Source of the DNA: Rhizobium lentis
GTDB taxonomy: Bacteria; Pseudomonadota; Alphaproteobacteria; Rhizobiales; Rhizobiaceae
Reading direction: 5' to 3'
NCBI RefSeq assembly: GCF_014200175.1
Contig: NZ_JACHBD010000003.1
Location: 1-64,000, forward strand
DNA length: 64,000 bases
Below, piece by piece: positions 647 through 8,012 of this stretch. A program made the position numbers and the translations under genes. The notes below the pieces were generated by a model that saw only the letters and a list, made by a program, of their open reading frames with translations, had not been told where the DNA came from and did no database searches. Position 1 is the first letter of the stretch. Each line of letters opens with the position of its first letter.

Positions 647-1909
647 TCAGCGGGCGTCGTCGATCGCCTGGACGAGCTGCTTGACGGCTTCGTCGGAGCT
701 CTTGATCTGGCCGTGGACGAACTTCGAGACGACGTCCTTATAGGCATTGGCGATCGCCGGCGGGGCGCCGTAACCCTGGGCCAGCGAACCGAACAGCGTG
801 CCGCCTTCATTGGCCGCCTTCAGGTCGGCGATGCCCTTCTTGCCGCAGGCGTCGAAGTCGGTGTCGGGAACGTCGGTGCGAGCCGGCACCGAGCCCTTGA
901 CGACGTTGAAGGCCGACTGGAAGCTCTTCGACAGCGTCGCCGTTGCCAGTGCCACCTGCGCCGCCTTGCGGTCGTCGGGAACGTTGAACATGCCGAACAT
1001 GTCGGAGTTGTAGATGACGCTGCCGTCGGTGCCGGGGAAGCGGTAGCAGAGGAAGTCGGTGTCCGGCGTCTTCTTGGCGGCGACGAATTCGCCCTTGGCC
1101 CAGTCGCCCATCACCTGCACCAGCGCATCACCCTTGATGACCATGGCGGTCGCCAGGTTCCAGTCGCGGCCGGAGAAGTTCGGATCGACGTATTTGACGA
1201 TCTTCGCCAGGTTGTCGAAGGACTTCTTCATCGTCTCCGACTTCAGCGACTCCTCGTCGAGGTCGTTGAAGGCCTTCTTGTAGAACTCCGGGCCGCCGGT
1301 CGACAGCACGATGGAATCGAACATCGTCGCTTCCTGCCAGTTCTGGCCGCCGAGCGCCAAAGGGATGACACCGGCCGCCTTGGCTTTGTCGAGCAGGGCG
1401 ATCAGGTCATCGAAGGTCTTCGGCTGGGTGCCGCCGATCTTGTCCATCACCGCCTTGTTGATCCACAGCCAGTTGACCGAGTGGACATTGACCGGGGCTG
1501 CGACCCATTTGCCGTCATAGACGGAGAACTTCTGCAGCGCCGCCGGCACCGACTTGTCCCAGCCCTCCTTCTTTGCCGTCTCGGTCAGGTCGCCCATGAC
1601 GCCGGCCTCGGCATAATCGAGCACGGTATAACCGAGCATCTGCGAGGCCGTCGGATAGGTGCCTGCCGCCACCATTGCCTTCAGCGCCGTCATCGCCGCA
1701 TCACCGCCGCCGCCGGCAACCGGAACGTCCTTCCAGGCAAAACCTTCCTTCGCCAGATCCTCCTTCAACACGTTCAAAGCCGCCGCCTCGCCGCCTGACG
1801 TCCACCAGTGCAGCATCTGCACTTCCTTGACATCGGCGGCGCGGGCCGCGACATGCGTGCCGGCCAGAGCCAATGCGATCACGGCCGTCGTGGTCAAAAA
1901 CCTATTCAT
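647..1909 (-). CDS. Sugar ABC transporter substrate-binding protein
   Basis: The 420-residue product starts with a signal peptide (residues 1 to about 24, ending AARA) and continues with the start typical of CUT1 family-1 sugar-binding proteins (HWWTSGGE). The Gly-rich stretch near residue 66 and [10 protein letters not shown] resemble glucose/mannose-type binding proteins. It would capture a sugar in the periplasm and deliver it to the permease encoded just downstream. It lies 87 bases after the aldehyde dehydrogenase gene in the same direction, so it may share that transcript or have its own promoter. The sugar type is an inference from general resemblance only. Confidence 0.88.
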
Positions 1910-1996: not shown

Positions 1997-3517
1997 CTAG
2001 ACCAGCTTTTCCGTCTGCGGCATCCACCAGCCGGTGCGCTTGCCGATATGCATGTTGAGCGTCTTTGTCTCCGTGTAGTCTTCGACCGCATGGCGGCCGA
2101 GCTCACGGCCGAGGCCGCTCTGCTTGTAGCCGCCGAAGGGCAGTTCCGAGGCGCCGTCCATGAAGGTGTTCATCCACACCGTGCCTGCCCTCATCGACCG
2201 GCCGATCGTCAGGCAGGTGTCGAAATCGCGGCTCCAGACACCGGCCGACAGGCCGTAATCGATCGAATTCGCGATCCTGATCGCTTCGGCTGTTGTTTCG
2301 AACGTCAGAACCGACAGAACAGGACCGAAGACTTCCTCACGGGCCACCGCCATATCAGGCATGACCGCTTCGAGGATCGTCGGCGACATGAACTGCCCCA
2401 TGCCGAGGTCAAGCGTCTCGCCGCCATGGGCGACGCGGGCGCCGCTGCTTCTGGCGCCGGTGACATAGCCTGAGATCTTCTCCAGATGCTGCGGCGTGAT
2501 GATCGCGCCGACCTGCGTTGACGGATCAAGGGGATCGCCGACCTTCACGTCCTTCGCCAGTTCAGCGACGCCCCTGACGACGTCGGAAGCGATCGACTTA
2601 TGCAGGATCAGCCGCGAGCCGGCATTGCAGCACTCGCCCGCATTGAAATAGGCGCCGAAGACCGCGGCATCGACGAACGCGTCGAGGTCGGCATCGGGGA
2701 AAACGATTTGCGGGTTCTTGCCGCCGAGTTCCAGCGAGACCTTCTTCAGTGTCTGCGCCGCATTCGTCATCGTCAGTTTTCCGACACCCGTCGAGCCGGT
2801 GAAGGACACCATGTCGACATCAGGGTGGGAGGTCATGATCGCGCCGACTGCAGGTCCCGTGCCGGTGACAATGTTGACGACGCCATCGGGAACGCCCGCT
2901 TGCTGCAGGATCTCTCCGAGCACGAGCGTCGATCCGGATGTCAGCTCCGAGGGCTTGACGACGGTGGTGCAGCCGGCGGCGAGCGCGAAGGGCAGCTTCT
3001 GGCCGACGATCAGGAACGGAAAGTTCCACGGCGTGATGATCGAGACAACGCCGATCGCCTCGCGCAGGACGACGCCGAGCGTGCCGTCGCCGAGCGTGTT
3101 GTAGCTTTCACCATGGAGATCGCGTGCGAGAGCCGCCGCATAGCGCCAGATGTCGACCGAGCCGGCAATTTCTCCCCGCACCTGGGTGATCGGCTTGCCT
3201 GCCTCGATGGCATCGAGAAATGCCAGTTCCTCAGCCCGTGCGGCGATCAGATCGGCCGCCTTAAGCAGGATGGCGGAGCGTTCGGACGCGGTCATGCGCG
3301 GCCACGGCCCCTCGTCGAACGCCCTGCGCGCGGCAGCGATGGCGTGCTCGGCGTCGGTCCTGCTGCCGGCCGGGAAGCGGCTGACCACGACACCATGGCT
3401 TGGCGCGACGCGCTCGATCGGATCGGAGGCGCCCGCCTCCCATCTGCCGTCGATCAGCATCTTGAAATCGCGTGCCTTGTGGTCGCTGAGCGCAGTCGGG
3501 TTGACGAGGACCGTCAT
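1997..3517 (-). CDS. NAD(P)-dependent aldehyde dehydrogenase
   Basis: The 506-residue protein is a full-length member of the aldehyde dehydrogenase superfamily, which oxidises an aldehyde to a carboxylate with NAD(P)+. Visible family motifs are TPWNFPF (near 162-168), VKPSE (near 187-191), FTGSTGVG (near 239-246), the general-base Glu263 in SLELGGK and the nucleophile Cys297 in FNAGECC. The ATG at 3517 is preferred over the one at 3523 because GGGAGA is then six bases upstream; with it the start overlaps the stop of the crotonase gene as TAATG, suggesting translational coupling. It resembles betaine/aminoaldehyde-type dehydrogenases, but the substrate is unknown. It sits between CoA-ester enzymes and a sugar importer. 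Confidence 0.9.
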   Translation of the reverse strand: MTVLVNPTALSDHKARDFKMLIDGRWEAGASDPIERVAPSHGVVVSRFPAGSRTDAEHAIAAARRAFDEGPWPRMTASERSAILLKAADLIAARAEELAFLDAIEAGKPITQVRGEIAGSVDIWRYAAALARDLHGESYNTLGDGTLGVVLREAIGVVSIITPWNFPFLIVGQKLPFALAAGCTTVVKPSELTSGSTLVLGEILQQAGVPDGVVNIVTGTGPAVGAIMTSHPDVDMVSFTGSTGVGKLTMTNAAQTLKKVSLELGGKNPQIVFPDADLDAFVDAAVFGAYFNAGECCNAGSRLILHKSIASDVVRGVAELAKDVKVGDPLDPSTQVGAIITPQHLEKISGYVTGARSSGARVAHGGETLDLGMGQFMSPTILEAVMPDMAVAREEVFGPVLSVLTFETTAEAIRIANSIDYGLSAGVWSRDFDTCLTIGRSMRAGTVWMNTFMDGASELPFGGYKQSGLGRELGRHAVEDYTETKTLNMHIGKRTGWWMPQTEKLV

Positions 3518-4296
3518 TACCATTCTCCCTTGAACGTTGCCGGGCGCTTCTCGCTGAAAGATGCGACGCCCTCCTTCAGATCGCCGGTTTTCGCCGCGAG
3601 GATCGAGCCAAGGGCTTCGACCGCGGTTCCGTTATCTTCGCCGTTCGCCGATGCGATCATCAGCTTGGCGATCTCGAGGGCCGCCGGTCCCCGCGCCGCA
3701 ATCCGACCGGCATATTGCCTGGCAGCGGCGACCGAGTTTCCTGTCGGAACCACCGCGTCGACGATACCGAGCAGGCGGGCTTCCTCGGCGGTGAAGATCT
3801 CACCGCCCAGCGCCATGCGGCGGACGGCCTGGGCGCCGAACCGGCGCACGAGACGCTGGGTGCCGGACCAGCCCGGCACCATTCCGAGGCCGGTCTCCGG
3901 CAGGCCGATCTTGATGTGTTCCTCGGCGATGCGAATGTCGGCAACACCGGCCAGTTCGAGCCCGCCTCCGAGGGCGTGGCCATTCAGCGCCGCGACCAGC
4001 GGCACCCGGAGCGTCGCCAGTCTTTCGAAGATACGGTGACCGTGCCGAACCCAGGCGTGGCCGAACTCCTGCGGCAGCATTCCGCCCCAGGCTTTGATAT
4101 CGCCTCCGGCGGAAAAGCCCTTTCCTTCACCCGTCAGAACGGCAGCGCGCACATCCGGGTTCGCCTCCACCGCATCGGCCGCCTCGGCCAGCGCTTTCAG
4201 CATATCGAGATCGAGCGCGTTCAACTTCTCCGGACGAGAAATCGTCAGCGTCGCGACATGTCCGTCGATATCGATCCTGACTGTTCCGCTAGCCAT
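3517..4296 (-). CDS. Enoyl-CoA hydratase/isomerase (crotonase) family protein
   Basis: The 259-residue protein has the length and fold signature of crotonases. The oxyanion-hole segments GFSAGGD (60-66) and HALGGGLELA (107-116) are present, and both acidic residues used by true hydratases are kept, Glu114 in LELA and Glu134 in GLPETG. It should therefore be able to hydrate an enoyl-CoA. The ATG at 4296 is chosen because a longer frame would run 78 bases into the upstream gene; with this start it overlaps the CoA-transferase gene by 8 bases. Being sandwiched between a CoA transferase and an aldehyde dehydrogenase suggests a dedicated acyl-CoA pathway, with unknown substrate. Confidence 0.88.
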   Translation of the reverse strand: MASGTVRIDIDGHVATLTISRPEKLNALDLDMLKALAEAADAVEANPDVRAAVLTGEGKGFSAGGDIKAWGGMLPQEFGHAWVRHGHRIFERLATLRVPLVAALNGHALGGGLELAGVADIRIAEEHIKIGLPETGLGMVPGWSGTQRLVRRFGAQAVRRMALGGEIFTAEEARLLGIVDAVVPTGNSVAAARQYAGRIAARGPAALEIAKLMIASANGEDNGTAVEALGSILAAKTGDLKEGVASFSEKRPATFKGEW

Positions 4297-5908
4297 GGAT
4301 GGCGCCCTCCAGTGTACGTGCCCGTTTGGCAGGAAGCGACAAGCCGATGCCTGCCTCGCGGAAGAGGGCCGCATCCATCACCTTCAGGTCGGGCGCGACC
4401 GTCAGCGGAAATTCGGACTGATCGAGGATCTGAGACTGAAGATCGACGCCGGGCGCGATCTCGGTAATGACGATGCCTTCAGGCGTCAGCTTCATCACGC
4501 ACCGCTCGGTGACATAGGTGATATCCTGCCCCTGCTCGATCGCCCGCCCGCCGCTGAAGGTGACGTGTTCGACCTCGTTGACCAGCTTCTTCAGCTTGCC
4601 CTCCCTCTCGATGACGAGAGCCCCATCGGCGGTCGACAGCTTCGCCCCGGCGTTGAACATGCCGGAGAAGACGATCTTCTTCGCCCGCGCCGTGATGTCG
4701 ACGAAGCCGCCGGCGCCGGCCGTCACATGCGGCCGGAAGGAAAGCTTGGAGACATTGACCGACCCGTCCTTGCCGATCTCGAGGAAGGACAGCAGCGACG
4801 CGTCGAAGCCCGCGCCCTGGAAATAGGTGAACTGATAGGGAGACGGCATGTAGGCGTCGGCATTGGAGGCGCAGCCGAAGGCGAAGTCGAGCAGCGGCAC
4901 CCCACCGACCGCGCCTTGCTCGATAACCCAAGTGACGGCGCCGTGGAGGCCTTCTTCCAGCAGAATGCGCGGCACGTTGGCCGAGATGCCGAAGCCGAGA
5001 TTGACGCAGCTTCCCGCCTGCAACTCTTGGGCGACGCGGCGCGCAATGACCTTCTGAACATTGAATTCCGGAACGCTGAAGCTATCAAGCGGGCGGAAGA
5101 TCTCGCCTGATATCGCGGGATCGTAGGCCGTCTGAGTCGTCTGCTTCTGATCAGGATCGACGACGATATAGTCGACCAGCATTCCCGGCACGCGGACGTC
5201 ATGCGGCTTCAGCGAGCCTTCCTTGGTGATCCGCTTGACCTGGGCGATGACGATGCCGCCATTGTTACGGGCGGCAAGCGCCTGATCGAGACCGCCGAGA
5301 TAGGCACCTTCATGCTCGTATGTCAGGTTGCCGCGCTCATCGGCGGTGGTGGCACGGATGATGGCGACCTGAGGGACAATCGAGGGGAAGAACAGCCAGT
5401 CGTCGCCCTCGAAGCTGACGCGCTTGACCACCTGCTGTTCCGAAGCAAGCTCGTTCATCGCACAGCCCTGACGCCGGGGATCGACGAAAGTGTCGACGCC
5501 GACCTTGGTCAGCACACCCGGCCGCTTGGCGGCGGCTTCGCGATGGATGTCGAACAGGATGCCGGAGGGAATGTTATAGGCCGGGATCTCATTGTTGGTG
5601 ATCATCTGCCAGATCAGCGGCGGCTCGGATGATGACGGCCCGGATGGATAGGAGCCGCCGATGATGCACTTGAGCAGGCCTTTCCTGGCGATGTAATCGA
5701 CGCCCTTGATGCCGCTCATATCGCCGGCGGCGATCGGATGAAGGGTCGTGATTCCCAGGGGATGGCCGGTCGCCTCGAAACGCTCGCCAATCGCCTTCAG
5801 CATGAGGTCCGGGCAACCGAGACCGCTCGAAGACGATACCGTGACGACGGCGCCGTCCGGGATGAGCGCGGCCGCTTCGGCTGGGGTGAGATGCTTTTTC
5901 ATGGGCAT
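4289..5908 (-). CDS. Acetate/acyl-CoA:CoA transferase (YdiF type, fused alpha-beta)
   Basis: At 539 residues this is a one-chain family I CoA transferase, with the alpha-like half first and the beta-like half second, as in E. coli YdiF. The catalytic glutamate is Glu330 in VIEQGAVGG, and the Gly-rich NLGFGISANVP precedes it. It would move CoA between acetyl-CoA (or another donor) and a carboxylic acid, activating the acid for the next enzyme. It overlaps the repressor gene upstream by 10 bases and the crotonase gene downstream by 8 bases, so the three are one translational unit. ATG at 5908 or at 5902 (third codon) could both serve. Confidence 0.9.
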   Translation of the reverse strand: MPMKKHLTPAEAAALIPDGAVVTVSSSSGLGCPDLMLKAIGERFEATGHPLGITTLHPIAAGDMSGIKGVDYIARKGLLKCIIGGSYPSGPSSSEPPLIWQMITNNEIPAYNIPSGILFDIHREAAAKRPGVLTKVGVDTFVDPRRQGCAMNELASEQQVVKRVSFEGDDWLFFPSIVPQVAIIRATTADERGNLTYEHEGAYLGGLDQALAARNNGGIVIAQVKRITKEGSLKPHDVRVPGMLVDYIVVDPDQKQTTQTAYDPAISGEIFRPLDSFSVPEFNVQKVIARRVAQELQAGSCVNLGFGISANVPRILLEEGLHGAVTWVIEQGAVGGVPLLDFAFGCASNADAYMPSPYQFTYFQGAGFDASLLSFLEIGKDGSVNVSKLSFRPHVTAGAGGFVDITARAKKIVFSGMFNAGAKLSTADGALVIEREGKLKKLVNEVEHVTFSGGRAIEQGQDITYVTERCVMKLTPEGIVITEIAPGVDLQSQILDQSEFPLTVAPDLKVMDAALFREAGIGLSLPAKRARTLEGAIHG

Positions 5909-6981
5909 TCCTCAGCGTCCTGTTTCGATTTTACGCTCTTGCCGGCCCTTGCCGGTGCGGTCTTGCCGGCGCCGCAGCTCTCGCGAACGACCAGCCGAAC
6001 GGCTGTCGTCATCGTCTCGGCCTCGGCCTTGCCGGCGTTGATCTGCTTGAGCAGCATCTGCGCGCCGCGGCGCCCGATGCCCTGCGGATCGACCGAGACC
6101 GTCGTCAGCGCCGGTACCGCCGCCTGAGCCTCGATGACGTCGTCGAAACCGACGACGGCGAAGTCGACGCCTGGCTCCAGACGACGCGAGCGCAATCCGT
6201 CGCAAACACCGAAGGCAACGGCATCGTTGAAACAGACGGCCGCGGTCGGCCGAAGGCCGAGCGCGATCGCCTTTCCGATTGCCTCCACCCCGCCGGCCCG
6301 CGACGGCGCCGACGAGATGACGAGTTCTTCGTGATAGCCGAGCCCGGCCGCCTCCACGCCATTTCGGTAACCCGCAAGCCTGTCGTCGAAGACGGCGGTG
6401 TCGGGAAAGCCGCCGAGAAAGGCGATGCGCTTGTGACCAAGCCCGGCCAGATGCTTGACCGCGGAGACCATGCCCGCCCGGTTGTCGGAGACGATCGACG
6501 AGACTTTGGCGCCGGGGAGGTTTCGAACGACGACCACGACAGGAATCCCGGCGGCGACAAGCGGCTTGAAGTCGGCGGCATCGGTGGCGCGCGCCGGCGA
6601 GACGATGAGGCCGGAGATACCATGCTCACGCATCGATGCGACAACCTCACGCTGCCTGTCGATGCTCTCGCCGGTGTTCGACAGGAATTGCACGAAGCCG
6701 GCCGACTGGACGACCATATCGACGCCGACCGCCAGCTCCGCAAAGAAGCTGTTGGTCAGGTCGTTCACAACAACTCCGATGATCCGCGATTTGGCACCGG
6801 CCTGCCGAAGATTGGCTGCGCCGCGATTGTAGACGTAGCCGAGATCCCGCATCACGGTATTGACCTTGGCGCGCGTCGCCTCATTGACCAGGGAGGACCC
6901 CTGCAGCACCAGCGACACCGTCGACTTGGAGACGCCGGCGGCCTTCGCGATGTCAATGACGGTTACCCGCGCCTTTGTCAT
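5899..6981 (-). CDS. LacI-family transcriptional repressor
   Basis: The 360-residue protein has the LacI-type helix-turn-helix at residues 6-30 (IDIAKAAGVSKSTVSLVLQG), the hinge-helix region near 50-62, and a periplasmic-binding-protein-like effector domain (IIGVVVND to about 340). It is the first gene of the operon with the CoA transferase, crotonase, aldehyde dehydrogenase and sugar importer, and very likely represses it. A palindrome of the usual LacI-family form lies in its own promoter (7022-7035). The inducer is unknown; a sugar or a pathway intermediate is likely. The C-terminus is Lys/Ala-rich. Confidence 0.92.
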   Translation of the reverse strand: MTKARVTVIDIAKAAGVSKSTVSLVLQGSSLVNEATRAKVNTVMRDLGYVYNRGAANLRQAGAKSRIIGVVVNDLTNSFFAELAVGVDMVVQSAGFVQFLSNTGESIDRQREVVASMREHGISGLIVSPARATDAADFKPLVAAGIPVVVVVRNLPGAKVSSIVSDNRAGMVSAVKHLAGLGHKRIAFLGGFPDTAVFDDRLAGYRNGVEAAGLGYHEELVISSAPSRAGGVEAIGKAIALGLRPTAAVCFNDAVAFGVCDGLRSRRLEPGVDFAVVGFDDVIEAQAAVPALTTVSVDPQGIGRRGAQMLLKQINAGKAEAETMTTAVRLVVRESCGAGKTAPARAGKSVKSKQDAEECP

Positions 6982-7015: not shown

Positions 7016-7044
7016 CAGTATTTGGAACGTTCCAATTCTGTCAA
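7016..7044 (-). promoter_or_regulatory. Promoter of the lacI-CoA transferase operon with operator in spacer
   Basis: On the minus strand TTGACA (7039-7044) is followed by the 14-base perfect palindrome TTGGAACGTTCCAA (7022-7035) and then TACTGA (7015-7020, spacing 18) as the best -10 candidate. The palindrome has the central CG of LacI-family operators. A repressor bound there would block RNA polymerase directly, so negative autoregulation is expected. Confidence 0.7.
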
Positions 7045-7128
7045 GAAAAATTTAGTGATCCGCTATAAATTTATTTTATTTCTATCGGGAATTCAGCTTT
7101 ATTCGCTATCGAAATCTCAGCTCTTAAA

Positions 7129-7142
7129 TTGGAACGATCTAA
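7129..7142. promoter_or_regulatory. Second, imperfect LacI-family operator
   Basis: TTGGAACGATCTAA matches the palindrome at 7022 at 12 of 14 positions. The two centres are 107 bp apart, close to ten helical turns, which would allow a repressor loop. It lies on the side of the divergent AhpD-like gene. Confidence 0.5.
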
Positions 7143-7388
7143 ATTCCAGTCACGGTTGACCAGCGCCTATGGACCTCCCCGGCCGGCAGGGTCGTGGAAG
7201 ATTCGAGGCTTGTCCCCTTGGCTTGCTTATCAAGAGACCGGCGAACCGATGCCGAGGACAGACTTGATCTTCTTGTGGAGCATCTAGGCCTCTTAAGCAG
7301 GGCTAACGGCTCGCGCTTGAACTGACGGCGCAGGATTGCTGTCCGGCATATCTACCCTATCCTTCTCGTAACAGAGGAGGACCATGCA

Positions 7389-8012
7389 ATGGCTTTCATT
7401 CACACCCCCAATGCATCCGCCAGCGAGAAGACGACGTCGATGTATGCGTCGGCAGAGGCCAATTATGGTTATCTGCCGAACATGTATCGTGCCTTCGGCC
7501 ACAGGCCGGAGGTGATGGAGTGCTGGGCGGCACTGCTTGCGAGCATTCGCGGCCATATGAGCCTCAGGCGCTATGAACTGGTGACGCTGGCGGCGGCCAA
7601 GGAACTGAAATCCTCTTATTGCATGCTGGCGCACGGTTCCGTGCTGCTGCGCGAGGGGTTTACCAGCGACGCGCTGACGGCTGTCGTCAACGAAACCGAG
7701 AAAGCGCCGATCGATGCCGGCGAACGCGCGATCATGGCATTCGCCGCCAAGGTGGCGCGCGACGCGACGTCGGTGACGCAGCAGGATATAGACGGGCTGA
7801 AGAAGCACGGGCTGAGCGATGCCGAGGTCTTCGACGTCACGGCCGCGGCGGCGGCCCGGTGCTTCTTCTCGAAAATGCTGGATGCGCTGGGTGCCGCACC
7901 CGACCACGCCTATCTCGAGCGGCTGGAGCCGAAAGTGCGCGAGGCGCTCAGCGTTGGCCGGGAGGTCGAGAGGCCTCTTGCGCCTTCCCCATCGCGCGGC
8001 ACATCGCAATGA
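7389..8012 (+). CDS. AhpD-like / carboxymuconolactone decarboxylase family protein
   Basis: The 207-residue product belongs to the peroxidase-related branch of the AhpD/carboxymuconolactone decarboxylase superfamily. The core signature is SYCMLAHG (76-83), with Cys78 and His82. The first cysteine of the AhpD CxxC pair is serine here, so a two-cysteine peroxidase cycle is not possible with this motif; the same is common in this subfamily as far as I know. AGGAGG lies nine bases before the ATG. It is divergent from the lacI operon and could share its operator region. Its exact reaction is unknown. Confidence 0.8.
   Translation: MAFIHTPNASASEKTTSMYASAEANYGYLPNMYRAFGHRPEVMECWAALLASIRGHMSLRRYELVTLAAAKELKSSYCMLAHGSVLLREGFTSDALTAVVNETEKAPIDAGERAIMAFAAKVARDATSVTQQDIDGLKKHGLSDAEVFDVTAAAAARCFFSKMLDALGAAPDHAYLERLEPKVREALSVGREVERPLAPSPSRGTSQ

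Follow-up and report, generated by a model that had tools for sequence, protein, structure and literature searches.

A LacI-family repressor encoded in the window (the whole stretch of Rhizobium lentis DNA analyzed here, 64,000 nucleotides) is reasonably likely to repress its own operon from a main operator, O1, located within the promoter, while a second operator, O2, orphaned by the disappearance of a divergent gene, would be kept as a helically phased auxiliary site acting through a DNA loop. This reading was built from comparisons of the two sites, of their neighborhood and of the distance between them across the Rhizobiaceae.

The operon and its promoter

The repressor gene (5899-6981, minus strand) encodes a LacI-type helix-turn-helix and a periplasmic-binding-like domain (Pfam LacI PF00356, 1.9e-15; Peripla_BP_3 PF13377, 1.8e-33). 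The closest named locus is that of R. bangladeshense, whose LacI is 97% identical to that of the window. Among proteins of solved structure, the repressor comes closest in sequence to regulators of the CcpA type. Reading leftward from lacI, the operon comprises genes for a CoA-transferase (4289-5908), an enoyl-CoA hydratase/isomerase (3517-4374) and an aldehyde dehydrogenase (1997-3523), all on the minus strand. A downstream gene for a solute-binding protein of the SBP_bac_1 type (647-1909, minus strand) may belong to the same transcript. The lacI and CoA-transferase frames overlap by 10 bp in the window (5899-5908); many relatives carry a Gfo/Idh/MocA oxidoreductase gene between the two, which is missing here.

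The operon promoter displays a -35 element, TTGACA (7039-7044, minus strand), and a -10 region, ATACTG (7016-7021, minus strand), a weak hexamer match of inferred register whose first three columns, ATA, are invariant across the 50 distinct upstreams of the window clade. On the lacI strand, the spacer between these elements measures 17 bp (7022-7038) and houses O1, TTGGAACGTTCCAA, a perfect 14-bp palindrome at 7022-7035 (minus strand), invariant in 50/50 distinct upstreams of the clade. O2, TTGGAACGATCTAA, is located at 7129-7142 on the plus strand, matches O1 at 12 of 14 positions and lies 107 bp from it, start to start. The first-pass annotation, which had placed one operator exactly between TTGACA and the -10 region and a 12/14 match 107 bp away, was thus correct on both sites. 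As an even palindrome with a central CG, O1 also has the form given for LacI-family operators in the accessible text of PMC4052901.

The genome (6.59 Mb) holds a single exact copy of the 14-mer; seven places match it with at most two mismatches, against 11 for a reversed-pattern control. Within the window, two places were found with at most three mismatches for 2.26 expected. Since found and expected numbers are so close, motif counts do not separate O2 from chance; its position beside O1 and its conservation do. Judged by these sequence matches, O1 and O2 are both confirmed as operators.

Conservation of the operator pair and autoregulation

Conservation was scored with at most three mismatches per site on a pooled set of 239 loci, to which the genus genomes contributed 106 places (105 of the 148 having a lacI orthologue), and which reduces to 177 distinct upstreams of lacI orthologues, that of the window included. 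Both operators precede the lacI orthologue in 177/177 of these upstreams (one locus, L279, being counted with a corrected start codon), as they do in 80/80 named loci (the best 80 of 138) and in 57/57 loci from family genomes, whose orthologues are 48-100% identical. The first-pass annotation had proposed a search for the 14-mer upstream of orthologous lacI genes in other Rhizobiaceae, and this search shows that both sites are conserved. Of the 247 family genomes, 33 carry the exact 14-mer. Among the 57 that have a lacI orthologue, 29 do so, and every one of these has one or more copies upstream of lacI; the other four belong to the 190 outside that group.

The position of O1 relative to the promoter is shared as well: of the 168 orthologues with more than 60% identity, 161 have TTGAC at most 12 bp upstream of O1. 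On the protein side, the recognition segment of the repressor, GVSKSTVSLVLQ, is identical in 13/13 compared sequences, namely that of the window and those of 12 relatives with identities as low as 48%. The accessible text of PMC2978694, taken apart from its figures and tables, states no rule for the repressor's recognition pair.

In the four genomes that carry the exact 14-mer and in which no lacI orthologue was found, the site precedes the same kind of CoA-transferase gene, and a second copy with zero to two mismatches is located 34 bp (G085; L127/L164), 24 bp (G012; L128/L165), 24 bp (G243; L129) or 21 bp (G161; L131/L166) away. The CoA-transferase gene is followed by enoyl-CoA hydratase and aldehyde dehydrogenase genes in 3/3 of those for which longer stretches were read. 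The operator is thus tied to the CoA-transferase operon even without an adjacent lacI, which supports the autoregulation reading. Together with the TTGAC element 5′ of O1 and the constant recognition segment, this bears out the autoregulation proposed in the first-pass annotation, and two predictions from sequence are well supported: that the LacI protein of 5899-6981 binds these operators and that it autoregulates its operon. By comparison, autoregulation was reported for 72% of the studied LacI-family regulators in the accessible text of Ravcheev et al. (2014, PMC4052901).

Of the three genomes with a further exact copy of the operator (G216, G071 and G154), the first two were inspected at that place (L162:7270-7283 and L125). 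In both, a GMC oxidoreductase gene follows the copy, which is some 14 kb away from lacI; this suggests a wider regulon in G216 and G071. The five other two-mismatch places of the R. lentis genome were considered as regulon sites and taken as chance matches, tblastn having found none of the query genes within about 4 kb around each.

Loss of the divergent gene and persistence of O2

On the other side of O2, a divergent DUF993 gene (Pfam assignment on one example) adjoins the operator in 83 of the 177 upstreams. Its start is typically about 35 bp from O2, which places O2 in the spacer of the apparent DUF993 promoter. This arrangement is probably ancestral, because it is found in eight of the nine most distant orthologues (48-55% identity). 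Of the 83 upstreams with DUF993, 81 have a -35-like tetramer ahead of O2, loosely defined as CTTG, ATTG, TTGA or TTGC within 10 bp; the same holds for 11 of the 94 without DUF993 and for five of the 50 of the window clade. The original partner of O2 would thus be the DUF993 gene and not the AhpD-like gene now found beside it, and we infer that the direction of change was the loss of DUF993. The 94 upstreams without an adjoining DUF993 form eight maximal clades on the lacI tree, and parsimony requires at least six changes on the 167-leaf tree.

DUF993 is absent beside O2 in the window clade, yet O2 is kept in 50/50 of its members, as in all 94 upstreams without DUF993. O2 might be no more than a leftover of the divergent promoter, whose gene has disappeared and whose -35 element has mostly gone; such a relic would hardly have stayed 96% conserved by column in the clade (n=50), against 47% in its flanks, while the adjacent bases and the -35 element decayed, nor persisted across all eight clades (the CoA-transferase gene being divergent in three upstreams). 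We therefore give this explanation very little chance of being correct. In those three upstreams (L023, L024, L026), which belong to the 94, the CoA-transferase gene itself lies on the divergent side, and the distal site has probably remained in the service of a promoter. The distal half of O2 has a non-consensus form, TTAG or TTAA in place of TTGG on the lacI strand, in 50/50 clade members, and this conservation suggests that O2 may be a weaker site by design.

A relocation of DUF993 together with its operator was also considered and rejected: the sole match in the R. lentis genome (G000:C12:197230-198375; L284) is only 59% identical to the divergent type, and no operator with at most three mismatches was found in the approximately 4.5 kb examined near this paralogue.

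The present divergent neighbor in the window is an AhpD/CMD-family gene (CMD; 7389-8012, plus strand). O2 could be an independent operator for whichever gene is now divergent, CMD in the window and a histidine kinase or others in relatives. Such a role would continue the service of O2 to a divergent promoter in the probable ancestral arrangement, and CMD does lie near O2 in the window and about as near in L043, L047 and L051. However, divergent neighbors vary among relatives while O2 persists: CMD is on the locus in 22 of 25 named clade relatives, its start lies 337-3130 bp from that of lacI (407 bp in the window) and at least 1.9 kb away in 18 of the 22, other genes separate it from lacI in most of them, and the nearest long frame is histidine-kinase-like in 14 of the 25 loci (Pfam assignment on one). 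In addition, 45 of the 50 clade members lack a -35-like tetramer before O2, and a conserved block upstream of CMD (7329-7388), with at least 75% identity in 21 of the 22 relatives in each 20-bp bin, begins 187 bp beyond O2. An independent divergent operator would also leave the phasing of O2 relative to O1, described below, unexplained. We consider this explanation highly improbable. CMD as the divergent target of O2 is rejected in view of its distant starts, the intervening genes and its separate conserved block, and the extension of a loop over the divergent AhpD-like gene that the first-pass annotation had envisaged is not supported.

The block at 7329-7388, which directly precedes CMD, may be the promoter of this gene or a site for a regulator. 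Between O2 and CMD, the segment 7176-7260 contains, by eye, pieces resembling L035 at about 5377-5810, a sign of a deletion beside O2.

Spacing between the operators and helical phase

The distance between O1 and O2 ranges from 63 to 573 bp in the 177 upstreams, which rules out that the 107-bp spacing is conserved as such. In the window clade it falls into three classes, 85-86 bp (2 upstreams), 94-99 bp (14) and 105-108 bp (34), with no values between them and with approximately one helical turn (~10 bp) from one class to the next. The DNA separating the operators is near random, with a median identity of 0.53 in the clade versus a shuffled mean of 0.47. Similar short classes are present in distant lineages: 63 bp (L169), 95-96 bp beside DUF993, 105-109 bp in orthologues of 48-55% identity, and about 138-142 bp. 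Fitting six class means, assigned to 6, 7, 8, 9, 10 and 13 turns, gives a turn of 10.63 bp and an intercept of 0.2 bp; this fit is descriptive, as the turn numbers were chosen by the analyst and 122 bp was omitted. That value corresponds to the one lineage that is out of phase, and no lineage was found at 11 or 12 turns.

Counted by lineage, spacings no longer than 145 bp have a coherence R of 0.69 (n=34) and those of 145-250 bp one of 0.04 (n=51), so that the divide between phased and unphased loci is set by length and not by DUF993. The p-values of this count by lineage come out too low, since several lineages contribute the ancestral 106-bp state. The loss of phase at 145-250 bp would fit an effect of torsion that weighs chiefly on short loops. 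At a period of 10.5 bp and 65% linkage, clusters without DUF993 give an R of 0.70 up to 145 bp (n=32) and 0.42 at any length (n=53); at 60% linkage the latter becomes 0.36 (n=33, p 0.012). Clusters with DUF993 give 0.20 (n=57). A scan of periods has its maximum at 10.5-11 bp (0.69-0.71), with lesser peaks at 8.25-8.5 bp (0.55) and 15-15.5 bp (0.60). Within the clade, R reaches 0.80 for the O1-O2 distance versus 0.38 for the distance from O2 to the start codon.

The clade tree requires at least 26 spacing changes. In neutral indel simulations matched to the number of changes and to the spread of spacings, the observed coherence was reached in one of 7351 accepted runs (0/1320, 1/2834, 0/3104 and 0/93 according to the size distribution), and none of 8097 runs reached it when all loci lacking DUF993 and spaced by at most 145 bp were taken together. 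Simulations with low, uncalibrated indel rates render the phasing nonsignificant, with p up to 0.84. Sister pairs of the clade that differ by at least 3 bp are too few to decide on phase: three are in phase and two out of phase.

The last two results would suit a second role for O2, in which it merely raises the local concentration of repressor or acts as a sink for it, the phasing then reflecting tolerated lengths or shared ancestry; the 105-108 bp spacing common to 34 of the 50 clade members also goes in this direction. What speaks against it is that the lengths form three distinct classes, spaced by about 10 bp with nothing between, and that similar classes (63, 95-96, 105-109 and ~138-142 bp) recur in distant lineages; we regard this role as decidedly doubtful.

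Phasing would also be predicted if the repressor bound at O2 acted without a dimer-dimer loop, by contacting RNA polymerase at the lacI promoter or by activating from upstream, since a polymerase contact equally requires a fixed helical face; a repressor that looks dimeric by sequence would be suitable for it. Against such a contact, the location of O1 in the promoter spacer indicates repression, phase is held at short spacings over some 6 to 13 turns, and without bending of the DNA the upstream distance of O2 is too great for a direct contact with the polymerase. This explanation is unlikely, if somewhat less so than the preceding ones. A service of O2 to the lacI operon as an auxiliary operator, through a DNA loop, is what the conservation and spacing data probably reflect. 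Of the possible loop raised in the first-pass annotation, the part that gains support is the loop between O1 and O2, with which spacings near whole turns agree, and not its reach over the AhpD-like gene.

Proposed mechanism

In the mechanism that we propose, the LacI-family protein of 5899-6981 would bind O1 between the -35 and -10 elements and repress its own operon. O2 would have started as the operator of the divergent DUF993 promoter, and both gene and promoter would then have been lost from the locus in the window clade, O2 being retained since it aids repression at O1. Two repressors, one at O1 and one at O2, would sit on one side of the helix and touch across a short DNA loop, and this contact would raise the occupancy of O1. 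A ligand linked to the substrate of the operon would presumably release the repressor.

The C-terminal end of the repressors is a difficulty for this mechanism. A leucine heptad is the mark of LacI-type tetramerisation. In 11 proteins viewed by eye, that of the window included, no LacI-type tetramerisation helix was seen; the tails that follow the conserved ESCG/QSCG are variable, about 9-23 residues long, and show no leucine heptad. The loop contact would thus be of another kind, perhaps as in GalR with HU. No IHF consensus was found between the operators in the 50 clade spacers (0/50), shuffled sequences being expected to give just 0.47; for HU, we know of no clear consensus sequence. The fuller proposal, that O2 is a co-opted looping operator on which selection for phase can be read at about 6, 7, 8, 9, 10 and 13 turns in the Rhizobiaceae, with a loop closed without the LacI tetramerisation helix, is put forward tentatively, as slightly less than an even prospect.

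Comparison with known systems

In the lac operon of E. coli, LacI acts on three operators. The locus described here resembles it by its LacI-family repressor, its strong main operator at the promoter and its weaker auxiliary operator at a phased distance, and the features of a lac-type loop found here are a main and an auxiliary operator, both as sequence matches, and a phased spacing at short range. It differs in that the main operator is located in the repressor's own promoter, that the auxiliary site apparently descends from the operator of a divergent promoter, and that the LacI-type tetramerisation helix is not seen. The gal operon of E. coli has two operators about 11 turns apart and a repressor, GalR, usually called dimeric, which acts through a dimer contact and HU. 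Two operators and a conceivable contact between repressor dimers are common to both systems, but gal has one of its operators inside the first gene.

Divergons of the LacI family share with this locus an even palindrome with a central CG and a region common to the regulator and a divergent operon; phased pairs at 6-13 turns and operators that outlive the divergent gene are absent from the account in the accessible text of PMC4052901. The same text reports more than one site before about 20% of regulated operons and inter-site distances that peak at 13, 22 and 32 bp. In the literature searched, mostly without subscription papers, neither the 14-mer nor the word DUF993 was found. Among the matches listed, likewise mostly without subscription papers and available in part, there was no report of this operon or of natural phased operator pairs, nor, among those listed and available in part, of an operator kept in phase after the loss of its own promoter.

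For LacI loops of E. coli, the accessible text of PMC1762422 describes a strong phase dependence in vivo at 57.5-155.5 bp in engineered constructs, with fits that place the helical repeat between 10.95 and 11.60 bp. Natural genomes appear to repeat this phasing experiment: the two operators recur in many lineages, separated by scrambled DNA, and the distance between them takes lengths about one turn apart below approximately 145 bp and is free above. The locus also points to a possible origin of auxiliary operators, as the second operator of a divergent pair once the other gene has been lost.
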